Source of the DNA: Alphaproteobacteria bacterium | GTDB taxonomy: Bacteria > Pseudomonadota > Alphaproteobacteria > Caulobacterales > Caulobacteraceae | Direction of reading: 5' to 3' | Length of the DNA: 64,000 nt | Assembly: GCA_025359785.1 (NCBI GenBank) | Contig: JANYET010000014.1 | Span: forward strand, 172,636-236,635 | In this document: in pieces, positions 47,414 through 58,831 of the stretch | Layout of the letters: each line of letters begins with the position of its first letter | How positions within the stretch are numbered: the first letter of the stretch is position 1 | Translations under genes and position numbers: made by a program | Notes under the pieces: generated by a model | Seen by the model: the letters and a program-made list of their open reading frames with translations, nothing else | What the model was told of the DNA's origin: nothing | The model's database searches: none

Positions 47414-47519
47414 CTGTGCGAGAGGAGTTATCGTGTGACGTCATTCCGACCGCCTTTGGGCGGTGACCGCGGCCCGGCGGCGTCCTAAGAAGCAGTCTCG
47501 ACAAGGACCCCGTTCCCCG

Positions 47520-48578
47520 ATGCCCCTAGCCCTAGGCGAGCCCGCGCCGTGGTTTACCGCGCCGACCCCCAGCAACCCTGAGTTCGTCTTCGACACGGTG
47601 GCCGGGCGCTATGTGCTTATGGTCTTTCTGCCCAGCGAACCGGACGCCGCTGGCGAGGCCCTGCGCGCGCTGGCCGCGCAACGCTCCAGGTTCGACGACG
47701 AGACGATGAGCGCCTTCGTGGTGGTCCGCGATCCCGCGACGGCCGCCACGGCCCAGGACATGCGCGGCCTGCGCTGGTTCCTGGACACCGACGGCGCGGT
47801 GAGCCGGCTCTACGGCGCCCTGGGGGCCGACGGCGTCGAGGCGCCCATGTGGCTGCTGCTGGACCCCACGCTCAGGACGATCGGCCGCGTTCGGATCGCC
47901 AACGCCCAGATGATTTTCGATCATCTGGCGCGCCTGCGCCCGGTCGCCGACCACGCCGGCGTGCCGTTGAACGCGCCGGTGCTGACCGCGCCGCGGATCT
48001 TCGAGCCGGAACTTTGCCAGCGGCTGATCGCCCTGCACCAGGCCGACGGCGGCCGGTTCACCGGCGTCATGCGCGATGTGGGCGACCGCACGGTCGCCGT
48101 GATGGACGAACTCAAGAAGCGCCGCGACGTCCTGGTCGAAAGCCAGGCTCTGCAGGCCGACCTTCGCGAGCGCCTGGAGCGCCGGCTGTTCCCGATGATG
48201 CATCGCGCCCTGGGCTTCAGCGTCACCCACATCGAGCGCTATGTGGTGAGCTGTTACGACGCCGCCGATGGCGCGGTGTTCCACGCCCACCGCGACTCCA
48301 CCACGCTCGGCACGGCGCACCGCAAGTTTGCCTGTTCGATCAACCTGAACGACGGGTTCGAGGGCGGCGATCTGCGCTTCCCGGAGTTTGGCCCTAGGAC
48401 CTACCGGCCGCCGCTCGGCGGTGCGGTGGTGTTCTCGTGCGCCCTGCTGCACGAGGCGACGCGGGTGACGGCCGGGCGCCGCTATGCCTTTCTGCCGTTC
48501 TTCTACGACGAGGCGGGCGCCGAGGTGCTGGCCGCCTATCGGGCTCGCGTGGCCGACATCGCGGAGCCCGCGGCCTGA
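47520..48578 (+). CDS. Thioredoxin-like/2OG-Fe(II) oxygenase fusion (paralog 1)
   Basis: A 352-residue two-domain protein. Residues 1-145 resemble a peroxiredoxin/redoxin fold (GEPAPWFTAPTP start, then GRYVLMVFLPSE), but the peroxidatic Cys position has none. Residues 150-352 form a prolyl-4-hydroxylase-type double-stranded beta-helix with Fe ligands His257, Asp259 (HAHRD) and His311, and 2OG-binding Arg321. The N-terminal domain may be a recognition module. It overlaps the next paralog by one base (TGATG). ATG 47520 is chosen because homology starts there. Confidence 0.85.
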   Translation: MPLALGEPAPWFTAPTPSNPEFVFDTVAGRYVLMVFLPSEPDAAGEALRALAAQRSRFDDETMSAFVVVRDPATAATAQDMRGLRWFLDTDGAVSRLYGALGADGVEAPMWLLLDPTLRTIGRVRIANAQMIFDHLARLRPVADHAGVPLNAPVLTAPRIFEPELCQRLIALHQADGGRFTGVMRDVGDRTVAVMDELKKRRDVLVESQALQADLRERLERRLFPMMHRALGFSVTHIERYVVSCYDAADGAVFHAHRDSTTLGTAHRKFACSINLNDGFEGGDLRFPEFGPRTYRPPLGGAVVFSCALLHEATRVTAGRRYAFLPFFYDEAGAEVLAAYRARVADIAEPAA

Positions 48579-49660
48579 TGGCGGCGCAAGCCGACACCGC
48601 CGCCTGGACCGCGCCCTTCGAGGCCGGCGATCCCGCGCCCTGGTTCGAAGCCCCGACGCCAACCAGCCCGCGCTTCTATTTCAGCACGACCGTCGGCCGC
48701 TACACCCTGCTGGCCTTCCTGCCGCCGCCGGGCGCGGCGCGGAACGCCGCCATGGCCGCCCTGCAGGCCCATCGCGGACCCTTCGACGACATCAGTCTTT
48801 CGGCCTTCCTGGTGCTGCGCGACCCCGCCTCGATCGCCGAGGCGCGCAACCAGCTGCCCGGGCTGCGCTGGTTCCATGACCCCGAAGGCCGGATCAGCCG
48901 CCTCTACGGCGCCCTGGATGACGCGGGCGCGGAGCATCCCTACTGGCTGCTGCTCGACCCGTCGCACCGCGTACTGGGCGCCTATCCGATCGCCGAAGCG
49001 GCGGCCCTGTTCGCCCAGATCGCGGCCCTGCCCGCCGTGGCCGACTACGCCGGGGTCGAGCTCTGCGCGCCGGTGCTGATCGTGCCTCGCGTTTTCGAGC
49101 CGGCCACCTGCCGCAGGCTGATCGATCTCTACAAAGCCCACGGGGGCGATCCGTCCGGGGTGATGCGCGACATGGACGGCAAGACCGTCGGCGTGCTCGA
49201 CGATTTCAAACGCCGCCGCGACGTCACGGTCGAGGACCAGGCCTTCTGTCAGGAAATCAGAACCTATCTCGGCCGACGCCTGATCCCGGAAATCGCCAAG
49301 GTGTTCCAGTTCCACGCCACCCGCATCGAGCGCTACATCGTCGCCTGCTACGACGCCAAGGACGGTGGTTATTTCCGCCCGCACCGGGACAACGAGACGG
49401 CGGGTACGGCGCATCGCCGGTTCGCGGTGTCGATCAACCTCAACGCCGATGAATTCCAGGGCGGCGACCTGCGCTTCCCTGAATTCGGCCCTCGCACCTA
49501 CCGGCCGCCGACCGGCGGGGCGGTAGTGTTCTGTTGCTCGCTGCAGCATGAGGCCACGCCGGTGACCCGCGGGACGCGTTACGCCTACCTGCCGTTCCTC
49601 TACGACGAGGCGGGCGCCGCGATCCGTCAGGCTAATCTTGGAGCCTTCGCAGCGCCTTGA
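48578..49660 (+). CDS. Thioredoxin-like/2OG-Fe(II) oxygenase fusion (paralog 2)
   Basis: A 360-residue paralog of the preceding gene. The N-terminal GDPAPWFEAPTP domain (to about 155) again lacks a peroxidatic Cys. The oxygenase has His269, Asp271 (RPHRD), His324 (LQHEATPV) and Arg334. The two paralogs share YGALxDxG, RVFEP, KRRDV, GGDLRFPEFGPRTYRPP and YDEAGA segments, so they arose by tandem duplication. ATG 48578 overlaps the previous stop. Substrates are probably prolyl or other residues of proteins or peptides, but this is not shown. Confidence 0.85.
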   Translation: MAAQADTAAWTAPFEAGDPAPWFEAPTPTSPRFYFSTTVGRYTLLAFLPPPGAARNAAMAALQAHRGPFDDISLSAFLVLRDPASIAEARNQLPGLRWFHDPEGRISRLYGALDDAGAEHPYWLLLDPSHRVLGAYPIAEAAALFAQIAALPAVADYAGVELCAPVLIVPRVFEPATCRRLIDLYKAHGGDPSGVMRDMDGKTVGVLDDFKRRRDVTVEDQAFCQEIRTYLGRRLIPEIAKVFQFHATRIERYIVACYDAKDGGYFRPHRDNETAGTAHRRFAVSINLNADEFQGGDLRFPEFGPRTYRPPTGGAVVFCCSLQHEATPVTRGTRYAYLPFLYDEAGAAIRQANLGAFAAP

Positions 49661-55649: not shown

Positions 55650-56726
55650 ATGGGAATCTCGAGTCTGCAGCTTTCGATCGGCGACCGCGCGCCGGACATC
55701 CTCGGCGCCACGGCGTCCGGGCGCTTCTATTCGCTGGACAGCCAGGCCGGCCGGCCGGCGCTGATCGTGGCCCTGGGCGCGCTTGAGGCTGGGGTCGCCG
55801 GAGCTCTGTTCGAGCGCCTTTGCCGTCTTCAATCGCAGTTGGCCGAGACCGGCGTCGATCTCGTCCCGCTGGCGCCGATGCTGCAACCGTTCACCGAGCG
55901 ATTTTCCACCGATCCCGCCGCCTACGACCTTCTGGTCTACACCTCGGGCAACGAAGGACTTGAAAGCCTGGACATCGAGGGGCGAGCCGCCGCCGTACTG
56001 ATCGACCGCGGCGCGCGCATCGTGGGCCTGTCAGGCCTGGATGCCGAAACCGACCTCATCGGCTGGCTCGGCGCCTCGGCGCGTCAGATCGCCTCGGCCG
56101 CCCCGCGGATCTGCACCGCGACCGCGCCGGTGCTGATGATCCCCAACATCATGCCGCCGGCGCTCTGTCAGGCCCTGATCGCGCACTTCGAGGCCTCGCC
56201 GCACGCAGCTGGGGTCATGGCGTCGTTCAGCGACGGCGCCGCCTACGCCAAGCTCGACGAGAGCAAGAAGAAGCGCCGCGACACCGAACTGACGGCGGAA
56301 AGCCCGCTTCACGGCGAGGTGGTTCATCTGCTTGCCAGCCGGGTGATCCCGGCGATTAAAACCGCGTTCCAGGCCGACATCGCCAACGCCGACCGCATCC
56401 TGATCGCCCGCTACGACGACACCGGCGGCTATTTCAAGCGCCACCGCGACAATACCGCGCCGCATACCGCCTTCCGCGAATTCGCCATCTCGTTGAACCT
56501 CAACACCGACGACTATGAGGGCGGCGAGCTCAAGTTCCCGGAGTACGACGACCACCGCTACAACCCGCCCGCGGGCGGCGCGATCGTGTTCTCAGCCTCC
56601 CTGCTCCACGAGGCCGCGCCGGTCACCAAGGGCAGCCGCTACGTCCTGCTCTCCTTCCTGGGCAGCGCCGAGGCTCAGGCCCGGCTCACTGCCTGGGTCG
56701 ACAGCCAACAGGCCATCGCCTCGTGA
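55650..56726 (+). CDS. Thioredoxin-like/2OG-Fe(II) oxygenase fusion (paralog 3)
   Basis: A 358-residue paralog of the 47.5-49.7 kb pair, more divergent. The N-terminal redoxin-like domain (IGDRAPDILGATASGRFYSL to about 150) has no peroxidatic Cys. The oxygenase has Fe ligands His265, Asp267 (KRHRD) and His320, and 2OG-binding Arg330 (VTKGSRYVLL). The GTG of the FkbH-type gene overlaps its stop (GTGA), so they are translationally coupled and probably act in one pathway. A hairpin overlies the ribosome-binding site. Confidence 0.85.
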   Translation: MGISSLQLSIGDRAPDILGATASGRFYSLDSQAGRPALIVALGALEAGVAGALFERLCRLQSQLAETGVDLVPLAPMLQPFTERFSTDPAAYDLLVYTSGNEGLESLDIEGRAAAVLIDRGARIVGLSGLDAETDLIGWLGASARQIASAAPRICTATAPVLMIPNIMPPALCQALIAHFEASPHAAGVMASFSDGAAYAKLDESKKKRRDTELTAESPLHGEVVHLLASRVIPAIKTAFQADIANADRILIARYDDTGGYFKRHRDNTAPHTAFREFAISLNLNTDDYEGGELKFPEYDDHRYNPPAGGAIVFSASLLHEAAPVTKGSRYVLLSFLGSAEAQARLTAWVDSQQAIAS

Positions 56727-58831
56727 CCCAGATCCGCCGCTCCACCTATGTCCACCTGACGCCGCTGGCGCAGGACCGCGTGCTGGTTGTCCACGCGATC
56801 AGCCACCTGCGCCTGGTGGTGGACGCCGAGGTCGCGGGGATCATCGCCTGGTTCGAGACGCCGCGGGACATGCCCGGCGATCTGGCGGCCTTCCGCGAGA
56901 CCCTGACCATCGACGCCGACACCCTGGCCGGTGCGCTGGCGAGCCTGATGGAGCGAGGCGTGCTGACCGCCGACGATCCCGCGGCGGAGGCCGCCGCCGT
57001 CGCCGAAAAGCTCGCCGAGCTGCACGGCCGCGATCCGGGCGAGGCCCTGGACCAGCTCCGCCGCCAAGCCGGCGAAGGCTCCAATCCCTATTGGTCGGTC
57101 ACTGCCGCGCTGGGCGCCGACGACCTGGGCGGCGCCAAGGCGCACCGCTGGGAAGTGCTGCTGTTCGGCGATTGTGACCTGCAGATGGAGGCCGACTTCC
57201 TGCGCCGCGAGGCCGCGCGCCGCGACGTGGACCTGCGCGTCGCCGCCAGCTTTCCCGACGACCTGCGCCTGGCCGCCGAGCGATCGCACCAGGCGATCTT
57301 CATCGGCGCGCTGCGTTCCCGCCATCTGGTGGCGCAAGGCTCGGCGGACGACCACGGCGGCGATCCGGCGGCCGTCTACCTCGCCGAGGCCCGCCACGTC
57401 ATCGAGGGCCTGCGCGCCCATTCCGATGCGCCGATCCTGATCGATGGGCTGCCGGAGCCGACCGTCCAGCCGCTCGGCCTCGCCGACCGGGGGCCGCTCA
57501 GCCACCGCGGCCGCTTCCGCGCCGTGAACGCCGGGCTTGAGGCGCTCGCCGACCAGTACGCCGGCGTCTACGTCGTCGACATCGCCGCGAGCTTGGCCGC
57601 CGAGGGGTTGAACGGCCTGCTCGACGACGCCCTCGTCGGCTTCACCCACTTCGGCTCACCGGGCTGGATGCTGCAGCGCCCGGCCGGCGAGCTTGCCGCC
57701 GTGCACAACGCCTTCCCCGACACCGCGCCGCTGGCCGCAATGGTCGGCCCCAACCTCTATCGCCGCGAGGCCGTCGCCGCCCGCGCGCACATGGACCTGC
57801 TGGCCGTGGTCATGGGCCTGGGCCGCAAAAAGTGCGTGATCCTCGACCTCGACGGGACGCTCTGGCCCGGCGTCCTGGCCGAGACCGGGGCGCCCTTTGC
57901 CTGGACGCCGGAGATCAGTGGCCACAACTCCTACATCGGCCTCTATTTCGGCTTCCACGAAGCCCTGAAGGCGCTGAAGAAGCGCGGCATCCTGCTGGCC
58001 TGCGTCAGCAAGAACGACGAGGCTCTGGTCCGCGAACTCTGGACCTACCCCGACCACTATCCGCACGAGCGCCTGCTGACCCCCGACGACTTCGTCACCT
58101 GGCGGGTCAACTGGCAGGACAAACCCTCCAACATCGCCTCGATCGCCGAGGAACTGGGCTTCGCGCTGGACGCCTTCGTGTTCATCGACGACCACCCGGT
58201 AGAACGCGAGCGGGTGCGACAGGAGCTGCCGGCCGTCGATGTGCTGGGCGAAGACCCCTTCGCGCTGCGGCGCCTGCTGCTCACCGACCCGCGCTTCCAG
58301 GTGCTGAAGCTCACTGAGGAAAGCGCCGTCCGCACCGACCTCGTGAAGGCCCAGCTCGGGCGCGAGCGCCAGCGCGCCACCTCCGGCGACGACTTCCTGA
58401 CCTCATTGGAGGTGGTCACCACCTGCGAGCGGCCGAGCGATCCGGCGATACTCACCCGTGTTGGCGAGCTCTTCCAGCGCACCACCCAGTTCAACACCAC
58501 CGGGCGCACCTTCACCGAGAGCGAACTGGCCCGCCATGCCCAGGCCGGCCAGGTCTTCGTCGCCCACTGCCGCGACCGGTTCGGCGACTACGGCCTGGTC
58601 GCCGCCGCCGTGCTGGACGGCGCGGAGATCGTAGCCTTCGCCATGAGCTGCCGGGTGATCGGACTGAAGGTCGAGCACCAGTTCCTGAGCTTCATTCTCG
58701 ACGCCATCGCCGACAGCCAGGCCGAAGTCCTGGCCCAGATCGTCGAGACCTCTCGCAACGGCCCGGTCCGCCACCTCTACGCCGACAACGGCTTCGCGCA
58801 GCAAGACGGTGTCTGGCGAAAGGCGCTCTAG
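56723..58831 (+). CDS. FkbH-like HAD-IIIC protein with N-terminal wHTH-like extension
   Basis: A 702-residue multidomain protein. Residues 1-90 look like a small winged-helix of the PqqD/RiPP-recognition type. Residues 140-345 form the SGNH-like domain common in FkbH proteins (LFGDCDLQME). Residues 368-520 are the HAD phosphatase/transferase: nucleophile Asp375 in LDLDGTLWPG, then VSKNDE, KPSNI, IDDHPVERE. Residues 545-702 are GNAT-like. FkbH enzymes load glyceryl groups from 1,3-bisphosphoglycerate onto carrier proteins. GTG start overlaps the upstream oxygenase stop. Confidence 0.85.
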   Translation: MTQIRRSTYVHLTPLAQDRVLVVHAISHLRLVVDAEVAGIIAWFETPRDMPGDLAAFRETLTIDADTLAGALASLMERGVLTADDPAAEAAAVAEKLAELHGRDPGEALDQLRRQAGEGSNPYWSVTAALGADDLGGAKAHRWEVLLFGDCDLQMEADFLRREAARRDVDLRVAASFPDDLRLAAERSHQAIFIGALRSRHLVAQGSADDHGGDPAAVYLAEARHVIEGLRAHSDAPILIDGLPEPTVQPLGLADRGPLSHRGRFRAVNAGLEALADQYAGVYVVDIAASLAAEGLNGLLDDALVGFTHFGSPGWMLQRPAGELAAVHNAFPDTAPLAAMVGPNLYRREAVAARAHMDLLAVVMGLGRKKCVILDLDGTLWPGVLAETGAPFAWTPEISGHNSYIGLYFGFHEALKALKKRGILLACVSKNDEALVRELWTYPDHYPHERLLTPDDFVTWRVNWQDKPSNIASIAEELGFALDAFVFIDDHPVERERVRQELPAVDVLGEDPFALRRLLLTDPRFQVLKLTEESAVRTDLVKAQLGRERQRATSGDDFLTSLEVVTTCERPSDPAILTRVGELFQRTTQFNTTGRTFTESELARHAQAGQVFVAHCRDRFGDYGLVAAAVLDGAEIVAFAMSCRVIGLKVEHQFLSFILDAIADSQAEVLAQIVETSRNGPVRHLYADNGFAQQDGVWRKAL

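Follow-up and report, generated by a model that had tools for sequence, protein, structure and literature searches.

An oxygenase with a peroxiredoxin-like front domain is conserved beside an FkbH-type protein with a predicted RRE-like N-terminal domain

The 64,000-nucleotide stretch of DNA analyzed here (the window) comes from an alphaproteobacterial genome assembly of 4.2 Mb in 75 contigs and carries two consecutive genes, encoding the oxygenase P4Hc and an FkbH-type protein, with two further oxygenase genes, P4Ha and P4Hb, in tandem upstream (Table 1). Both open reading frames of the pair sit where the first-pass annotation of this sequence had placed them, and the bases bear out the four-nucleotide overlap that it reported. 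In its own genome the FkbH-type protein has no second match at E 1e-3, and the oxygenase search gave four matches: P4Hc, the two tandem genes and, on a different contig, a 232-aa frame that matches in part.

Table 1 Coordinates and supporting evidence for the features of the window
Feature	Position	Strand	Evidence
Peroxiredoxin-like/2OG-Fe(II) oxygenase (P4Hc), 358 aa	55650..56726	+	PF13640, E 1e-12; HxD..H..R invariant in 20/20 aligned oxygenases
Peroxiredoxin/thioredoxin-like front domain, residues ~9-152	55674..56105	+	peroxiredoxin 3drn hit by a 20-oxygenase profile, E 4e-9; AhpC-TSA in 7/20
2OG-Fe(II) oxygenase domain, residues ~155-340	56112..56669	+	PF13640; profile relatives PiuC and LH3
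GTGA overlap of the two genes	56723..56726	+	sequence: GTG, start of the FkbH-type gene; TGA, stop of the oxygenase gene
FkbH-type protein, predicted RRE-SGNH-HAD-GNAT, 702 aa	56723..58831	+	TIGR01686, 230.3 bits; predicted model
RRE-like winged-helix domain (predicted), residues 1-85	56723..56977	+	
SGNH-like domain, residues ~141-345	57143..57757	+	Foldseek matches 3slr and GDSL esterase 7e16; GDSL Pfam in 5/22 members
HAD-IIIC phosphatase core, residues ~369-505, Asp375/Asp377	57827..58237	+	TIGR01681; 3slr, E 1.8e-25
GNAT-like domain, residues ~557-695, invariant Ser-Cys643-Arg	58391..58807	+	Foldseek matches GNAT proteins including SbzI; SCR in 22/22 family members
Paralogous Prx-like/2OG oxygenase P4Ha	47463..48578 (start may be 47520)	+	PF13640; groups with P4Hb in tree
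Paralogous Prx-like/2OG oxygenase P4Hb	48578..49660	+	domain match, homologue search, tree

FkbH enzymes are known for charging carrier proteins with three-carbon units, and those described by TIGR01686 make the glyceryl-ACP of tetronate and methoxymalonate pathways. The window's protein belongs to this family: TIGR01686 covers residues 369-695 and scores well above its cut-off of 146.65 bits, and the HAD-IIIC model scores 54 bits against a cut-off of 35.75. Together with the invariance of Asp375 and Asp377 in all 22 aligned family members, these scores bear out the HAD-IIIC core proposed in the first-pass annotation, and the Foldseek matches likewise support the SGNH-like domain that it had placed alongside. 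In the SGNH part Gly149-x-Cys151 and His309 are invariant (22/22), and block I lacks the serine nucleophile, reading GDC or GEC instead, with Cys151 present in all 22 members. The cysteine of the SCR triplet in the GNAT-like domain, Cys643, could be the residue that carries the acyl group. The domain order RRE, SGNH, HAD, GNAT is that of a predicted whole-protein model, which is the weaker model (pLDDT 77, pTM 0.59; 22 sequences). A similar SGNH-like plus HAD arrangement is found in BF1531 of Bacteroides fragilis (PDB 3slr), the solved 376 residues of which appear from the alignment to be filled by these two domains, leaving no RRE.

An outside comparison drew on 20 of the 26 non-family FkbH loci; L047, L050-L053 and L055 yielded meaningless frames and were left out, so that 14 usable FkbH proteins entered it. 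All 14 have both HAD aspartates, the DD motif and the cysteine of SCR, and 13 have the SKN motif; the likeness to the TIGR01686 glyceryl transferase/phosphatases lies in a HAD-IIIC plus GNAT core with its DxD, SKN, DD and SCR motifs. The window's protein differs from them in its RRE-like domain, in the lack of an adjacent carrier gene and in three motifs: the GDC/GEC of the SGNH part, which the family alone has in comparison with the 14 outside proteins, a WPG (Pro382) found in none of the 14, and a TTQF in which the family has Thr588 and all 14 outside proteins have Asn before Gln. Because the family departs from other FkbH proteins at WPG and TTQF, the donor or the acceptor may differ.

The first 90 residues had been likened to a PqqD/RRE-type winged helix, and structure prediction and fold comparison support that likeness. 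The N-terminal model has strands at residues 2-6, 10-16, 19-24 and 30-34 and a short strand at 48-50, and helices at 35-43, 54-58 and 65-77 that follow the beta-beta-beta part. This is the beta-beta-beta then alpha-alpha-alpha order of RRE winged helices, and the best structural matches of the model are RREs; an unrelated fold did not emerge. The best Foldseek E value was 1.2e-3, and the subsequent VIA-align fold comparison covers the winged helices among the chains ranked by Foldseek. Residues 1-85 resemble in fold the RREs of the RiPP enzymes TigE, MccB, TruD and ThcOx, to which they are fused, and the discrete TbiB1 and PqqD; the difference here is that the RRE-like domain is fused to an FkbH core with no precursor found nearby. 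A profile search of 177,635 PDB sequences also placed TigE first (E 0.023, weak taken alone). Pfam and NCBIfam models gave no PqqD/RRE-family match in the 29 family members, and PF05402 (PqqD) is described, in the part of PMC7470986 available, as recovering other RREs incompletely. A PqqD pathway was considered and set aside, PF05402 having no match in the window's own genome. The N-terminal RRE fold is a prediction of the model.

Winged helices of similar fold also turned up outside RiPP systems in the fold comparison, namely BmdC entries and the ribosomal oxygenases MINA53, NO66 and YcfD. These ribosomal oxygenases lend some weight to a reading in which the winged helix of the RRE-like domain serves structure or dimerization and the pair modifies a fixed cellular protein or glycan rather than a leader-bearing peptide. 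In line with that reading, the fkbH-domain gene cj1302 is among the genes discussed for flagellar glycans in the accessible part of PMC7099621, and a small-ORF comparison across 58 loci found no nearby precursor gene (see below). On balance we judge it distinctly unlikely.

P4Hc was first described as an oxygenase fusion, and it stands as a fusion of two domains, one peroxiredoxin-like and one an oxygenase. A peroxidatic cysteine does not stand as a feature of the oxygenase family, because 6 of the 20 aligned rows lack any cysteine in the front half; judged from sequence, the front domain is probably peroxiredoxin-like in fold only and not a peroxidase. The PF13640 match spans residues 252-336. 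The invariant residues of the HxD..H..R motif are H265, D267 and H320, which from knowledge of the family we take to be the iron triad, and R330, presumably the 2-oxoglutarate arginine. A profile search relates the oxygenase core to the solved structures of PiuC, a PKHD hydroxylase, and the procollagen lysyl hydroxylase LH3, from both of which P4Hc differs in its peroxiredoxin-like front domain and its conserved FkbH partner. The genes at 47520-49660, singled out earlier for follow-up, proved by domain match and homologue search to be tandem paralogs of this oxygenase; the AhpC-TSA match of P4Ha (E 4.6e-5) is below its curated cut-off. The tandem falls in the oxygenase clade whose FkbH partners elsewhere are of the other group, a group absent from the window's own genome.

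Among 84,980 species genomes scanned, 44 loci were found, 29 of which (L001-L029) match the RRE-FkbH family; the other 15 match its later parts only, chiefly HAD-GNAT, at 29-39% identity. Two of the 29 end at contig borders, L029 without its front and L025 stopping inside the FkbH gene. The oxygenase adjoins RRE-FkbH in 23 of the 29, mostly in Alphaproteobacteria (22 scored by tblastn, and L012 from an incomplete gene at a contig edge), with a single esterase-like gene in between in L002 and L005. It is not adjacent in L008, L009, L019, L023 and L027, and two further linked loci, L092 and L093, lie beyond the 29. Six of the 23 (L001-L006) have the synteny of the window and are not independent. 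Their genomes are labeled Phenylobacterium or only as alphaproteobacterial or proteobacterial MAGs. As the same pair recurs in 23 of 29 family loci, the oxygenase and RRE-FkbH are a genuine unit, beyond chance. The order of the two genes varies: the oxygenase lies upstream of FkbH in the window, L001-L006, L015, L017, L026, L028 and L092, downstream in L013, L014, L021, L022, L024, L029 and L093, and divergently in L007, L010, L011, L012, L016, L018 and L020. Mapped on the FkbH tree, the four labels for gene order require 10 changes, compared with a mean of 18.7 after shuffling, so the two genes seem to have stayed linked through several rearrangements.

The two genes also occur together when they are apart. 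The oxygenase was present in 11 of 12 RRE-FkbH genomes tested, the sole exception being G297, and in 6 of 7 genomes with an FkbH gene that lacks an adjacent oxygenase it was found elsewhere, against a base of 83 of 385 Alphaproteobacteria at E 1e-40 (both counts uncorrected for kinship). Two of these six (G445 and G446) held a linked pair too, and in G443 oxygenase and FkbH lie on one contig, 17.7 kb apart start to start. RRE-FkbH occurs in 4 of the 385 genomes, three of which have the oxygenase, adjacent in all three; a match in G377 (E 6e-5, with an internal stop) fell at a 143-aa ORF that looks unrelated and was discarded, giving 4 rather than 5. Most genomes with oxygenases of the P4Hc type lack RRE-FkbH.

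The oxygenase tree has two clades (support 100/100), and 28 of 29 pairs (9 and 19; kinship uncorrected) have an oxygenase of the clade that goes with their FkbH group, the exception being L093. This test is loose, because the FkbH split was taken from midpoint rooting and has a support of 28/64. The well-supported FkbH clades are uniform, eight rows (95/94) having the a/b type only and nine rows (100/100) the c type only. In G448, G443, G447 and G444 the oxygenase lies apart from FkbH and likewise falls in the clade matching it; there is exactly one oxygenase match in G448, G443 and G444, and one full-length match plus one fragment in G447. In two genomes, G452 (L020, L028) and that of L011 (L011/L091, L092), both FkbH groups are represented by one gene each, and each of these genes adjoins its own type of oxygenase. 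Conserved linkage and matching trees thus support the coupling of the FkbH-type protein to the oxygenase that the first-pass annotation had proposed. Three gene orders, the clade match and the matching of non-adjacent partners all count against the notion that a general stress or metal oxygenase and a separate FkbH enzyme happen to co-travel, and this we consider highly improbable, even with G297 and the excess of oxygenase genomes (83 versus 4 of 385) in its favor.

What the pair acts on was sought among its neighbors. Genes were called with a custom codon-usage script rather than a published gene finder, and small ORFs (20-150 aa, outside genes of at least 150 aa) were compared between locus groups, twice with window positions 40001-64000 plus the 29 loci and a third time in 58 loci other than the window, over the 2.5 kb around the pair or around an oxygenase standing alone. 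The first comparison gave zero between-group clusters at E 1e-4. A looser one gave at least 20 between-group matches from E 1.4e-4 upward and one cluster joining L013 to the window's group (E 1e-3), whose first member lies more than 3 kb beyond FkbH; these were judged to be chance. In the third, each of the 14 largest clusters was confined to one locus group or genus. One cluster, in L011, L016, L018 and L020, looks like twin-arginine-translocase genes. In none of the three comparisons did a small ORF stand out convincingly as shared by different locus groups, although a fast-evolving precursor could escape them. The locus is not classed as a RiPP gene cluster, the search near the enzymes having given no convincing precursor. 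Of the peptide- or carrier-tailoring pathway suggested at first, the RRE-like fold and the coupling to the oxygenase stand, and action on a peptide does not gain support from the three comparisons.

Nor does an acyl carrier gene, as in a glyceryl-ACP system, lie beside FkbH in the window; the first-pass annotation had likewise seen neither a precursor nor a carrier there. Polysaccharide loci with an obvious carrier, which would have pointed elsewhere, were not seen among the annotated neighbors. PF00550 matches just two carriers in the window's genome, the first some 74 kb from the pair and the second on a different contig. The second adjoins genes that by eye are ABC transporter-, ketosynthase- and efflux protein-like. 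These findings bear on a small-molecule pathway, in which FkbH would place glyceryl on a carrier encoded at a distance, the RRE-like domain would dock either that carrier or the partner enzyme P4Hc, and P4Hc would hydroxylate the carried acyl group. With no carrier gene among annotated neighbors and both carriers far off in the one genome searched, that of the window, we hold such a pathway to be rather unlikely.

In a clustering of the neighboring genes, several metabolic and transport families recur near the pair: enoyl-CoA hydratase (9 loci in 3 groups), ABC-transporter-like genes (3 loci in 3 groups), acyl-CoA dehydrogenase and aldo/keto reductase (each 5 loci in 2 groups). They were set aside because they belong to large families and keep no one fixed place, though some may be partners. 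Peptidases also occur there, M16 in the window and L001-L006 and S9 in L010 and L019; as leader peptidases they were set aside, the families being different and the start of the M16 protein looking signal-like by eye.

We tentatively favor, at somewhat less than an even chance, a reading in which the enzyme pair tailors a ribosomal peptide or protein. The RRE-like domain would hold the substrate, its ligand being a peptide and not a carrier or the partner enzyme. The substrate would first be hydroxylated by the oxygenase and next acylated by the FkbH core, most likely with a glyceryl unit taken from 1,3-bisphosphoglycerate. The order of bind, hydroxylate and acylate, and the acceptor, are suggested by FkbH glyceryl chemistry, the PiuC and LH3 relatives and lysine hydroxylation in corallotide. 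The donor would follow by analogy from FkbH enzymes that turn 1,3-bisphosphoglycerate into a glyceryl-carrier thioester, as stated in the portions consulted of PMC7489565 and PMC8949500. A 2OG oxygenase hydroxylates lysine in the RiPP corallotide according to the available text of PMC13097080; that enzyme is likened to P4Hc as a RiPP tailor by description and not by sequence, and it belongs to a graspetide pathway; the abstract of that paper does not mention FkbH. A narrower form of the favored reading, in which leader-guided glyceroylation would make this the first FkbH to load an RRE-held ribosomal substrate, at a freshly hydroxylated residue and with the substrate encoded elsewhere, seems to us unlikely.

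The component parts are of known kinds and their combination is new. A 2025 survey of RRE fusions reports unexpected ones, such as Memo-like proteins, and FkbH, haloacid and GNAT are absent from the portion of its text searched (PMC12710340). In the open-access literature, to which the search was confined, no paper was found that joins FkbH with "recognition element", and of those joining FkbH with RiPP none is, by title, about such a fusion; broader searches likewise showed none among the papers listed. Were the favored reading true, an FkbH enzyme in which an RRE replaces the carrier partner would mean a new peptide or protein modification, and genome mining would gain a handle independent of a nearby precursor gene.

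Stand-alone homologues of the RRE-like domain gave 59 matches of 90-249 aa, and 7 of the 8 inspected look like family proteins that are broken off or frame-shifted. A 144-aa ORF with an RRE in L058 was similarly rejected, being a shortened version of an FkbH gene from the other group. Among the eight inspected, P0176 has an RRE start joined to an oxygenase-like tail.

Some copies of the RRE-bearing genes are shortened. One frame, a truncated copy belonging to the other FkbH group (L058), retains an intact RRE part, the predicted winged-helix domain, and stops shortly past the GDC motif of the SGNH-like part; another contig of the same genome (C12) carries a full FkbH gene and an oxygenase gene near each other. 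The stand-alone RRE homologue P0176 is a small ORF of 101 residues with eight member sequences, which starts as an RRE and has a tail like the end of the Bradyrhizobium oxygenase. It reads as if the FkbH-oxygenase unit had dropped out between the two. The RRE-FkbH gene also occurs in a genome (that of L094) in which we found no oxygenases of the pair's type at E 1e-10.

Positions of features discussed
Feature	Locus and coordinates	Remark
Truncated copy, other FkbH group	L058:1495-1929	G015, contig C7
RRE-FkbH gene, 683 aa	L094:9110-11161	genome G297
Esterase-like gene	L002:8726-9658	PF00756 checked
Esterase-like gene	L005:8987-9910	
TPR protein gene	L028:6847-8892	overlaps oxygenase gene start
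Peptidase gene (M16 or S9)	window:52685-55582	
Peptidase gene (M16 or S9)	L010:6584-8713	
Peptidase gene (M16 or S9)	L019:7839-9926	
Tandem P4Ha-P4Hb and DUF3617 gene	window:47463-50173	
Small cluster with carrier protein	L130:4302-8900	G000, contig C21

In two relatives an esterase-like gene separates the oxygenase and FkbH genes. The second half of the L028 TPR protein appeared ATP-grasp-like by eye; its comparison with the PDB gave only a weak match, to biotin carboxylase (E 0.11). The peptidase genes, M16 in the window and S9 in L010 and L019, occupy three different settings, in each adjoining or close to either the pair or the FkbH gene alone.

The carrier-protein cluster, which is unlinked to the pair, also includes ketosynthase-like, ABC-transporter-like and efflux-protein-like genes. 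Genus relatives (L069, L071, L075, L076, L077 and L122) show the same arrangement of paralogous tandem oxygenases and a DUF3617 gene as the window, and in several of them it adjoins a gene that clusters with, or is sized like, the 930-residue gyrase-A-like gene of the window. Lone oxygenases of the same type lie near a histidine kinase and response regulator pair in L070, L073, L081 and L083, the kinase being assigned to DUF4118 by a Pfam check in L070 only.
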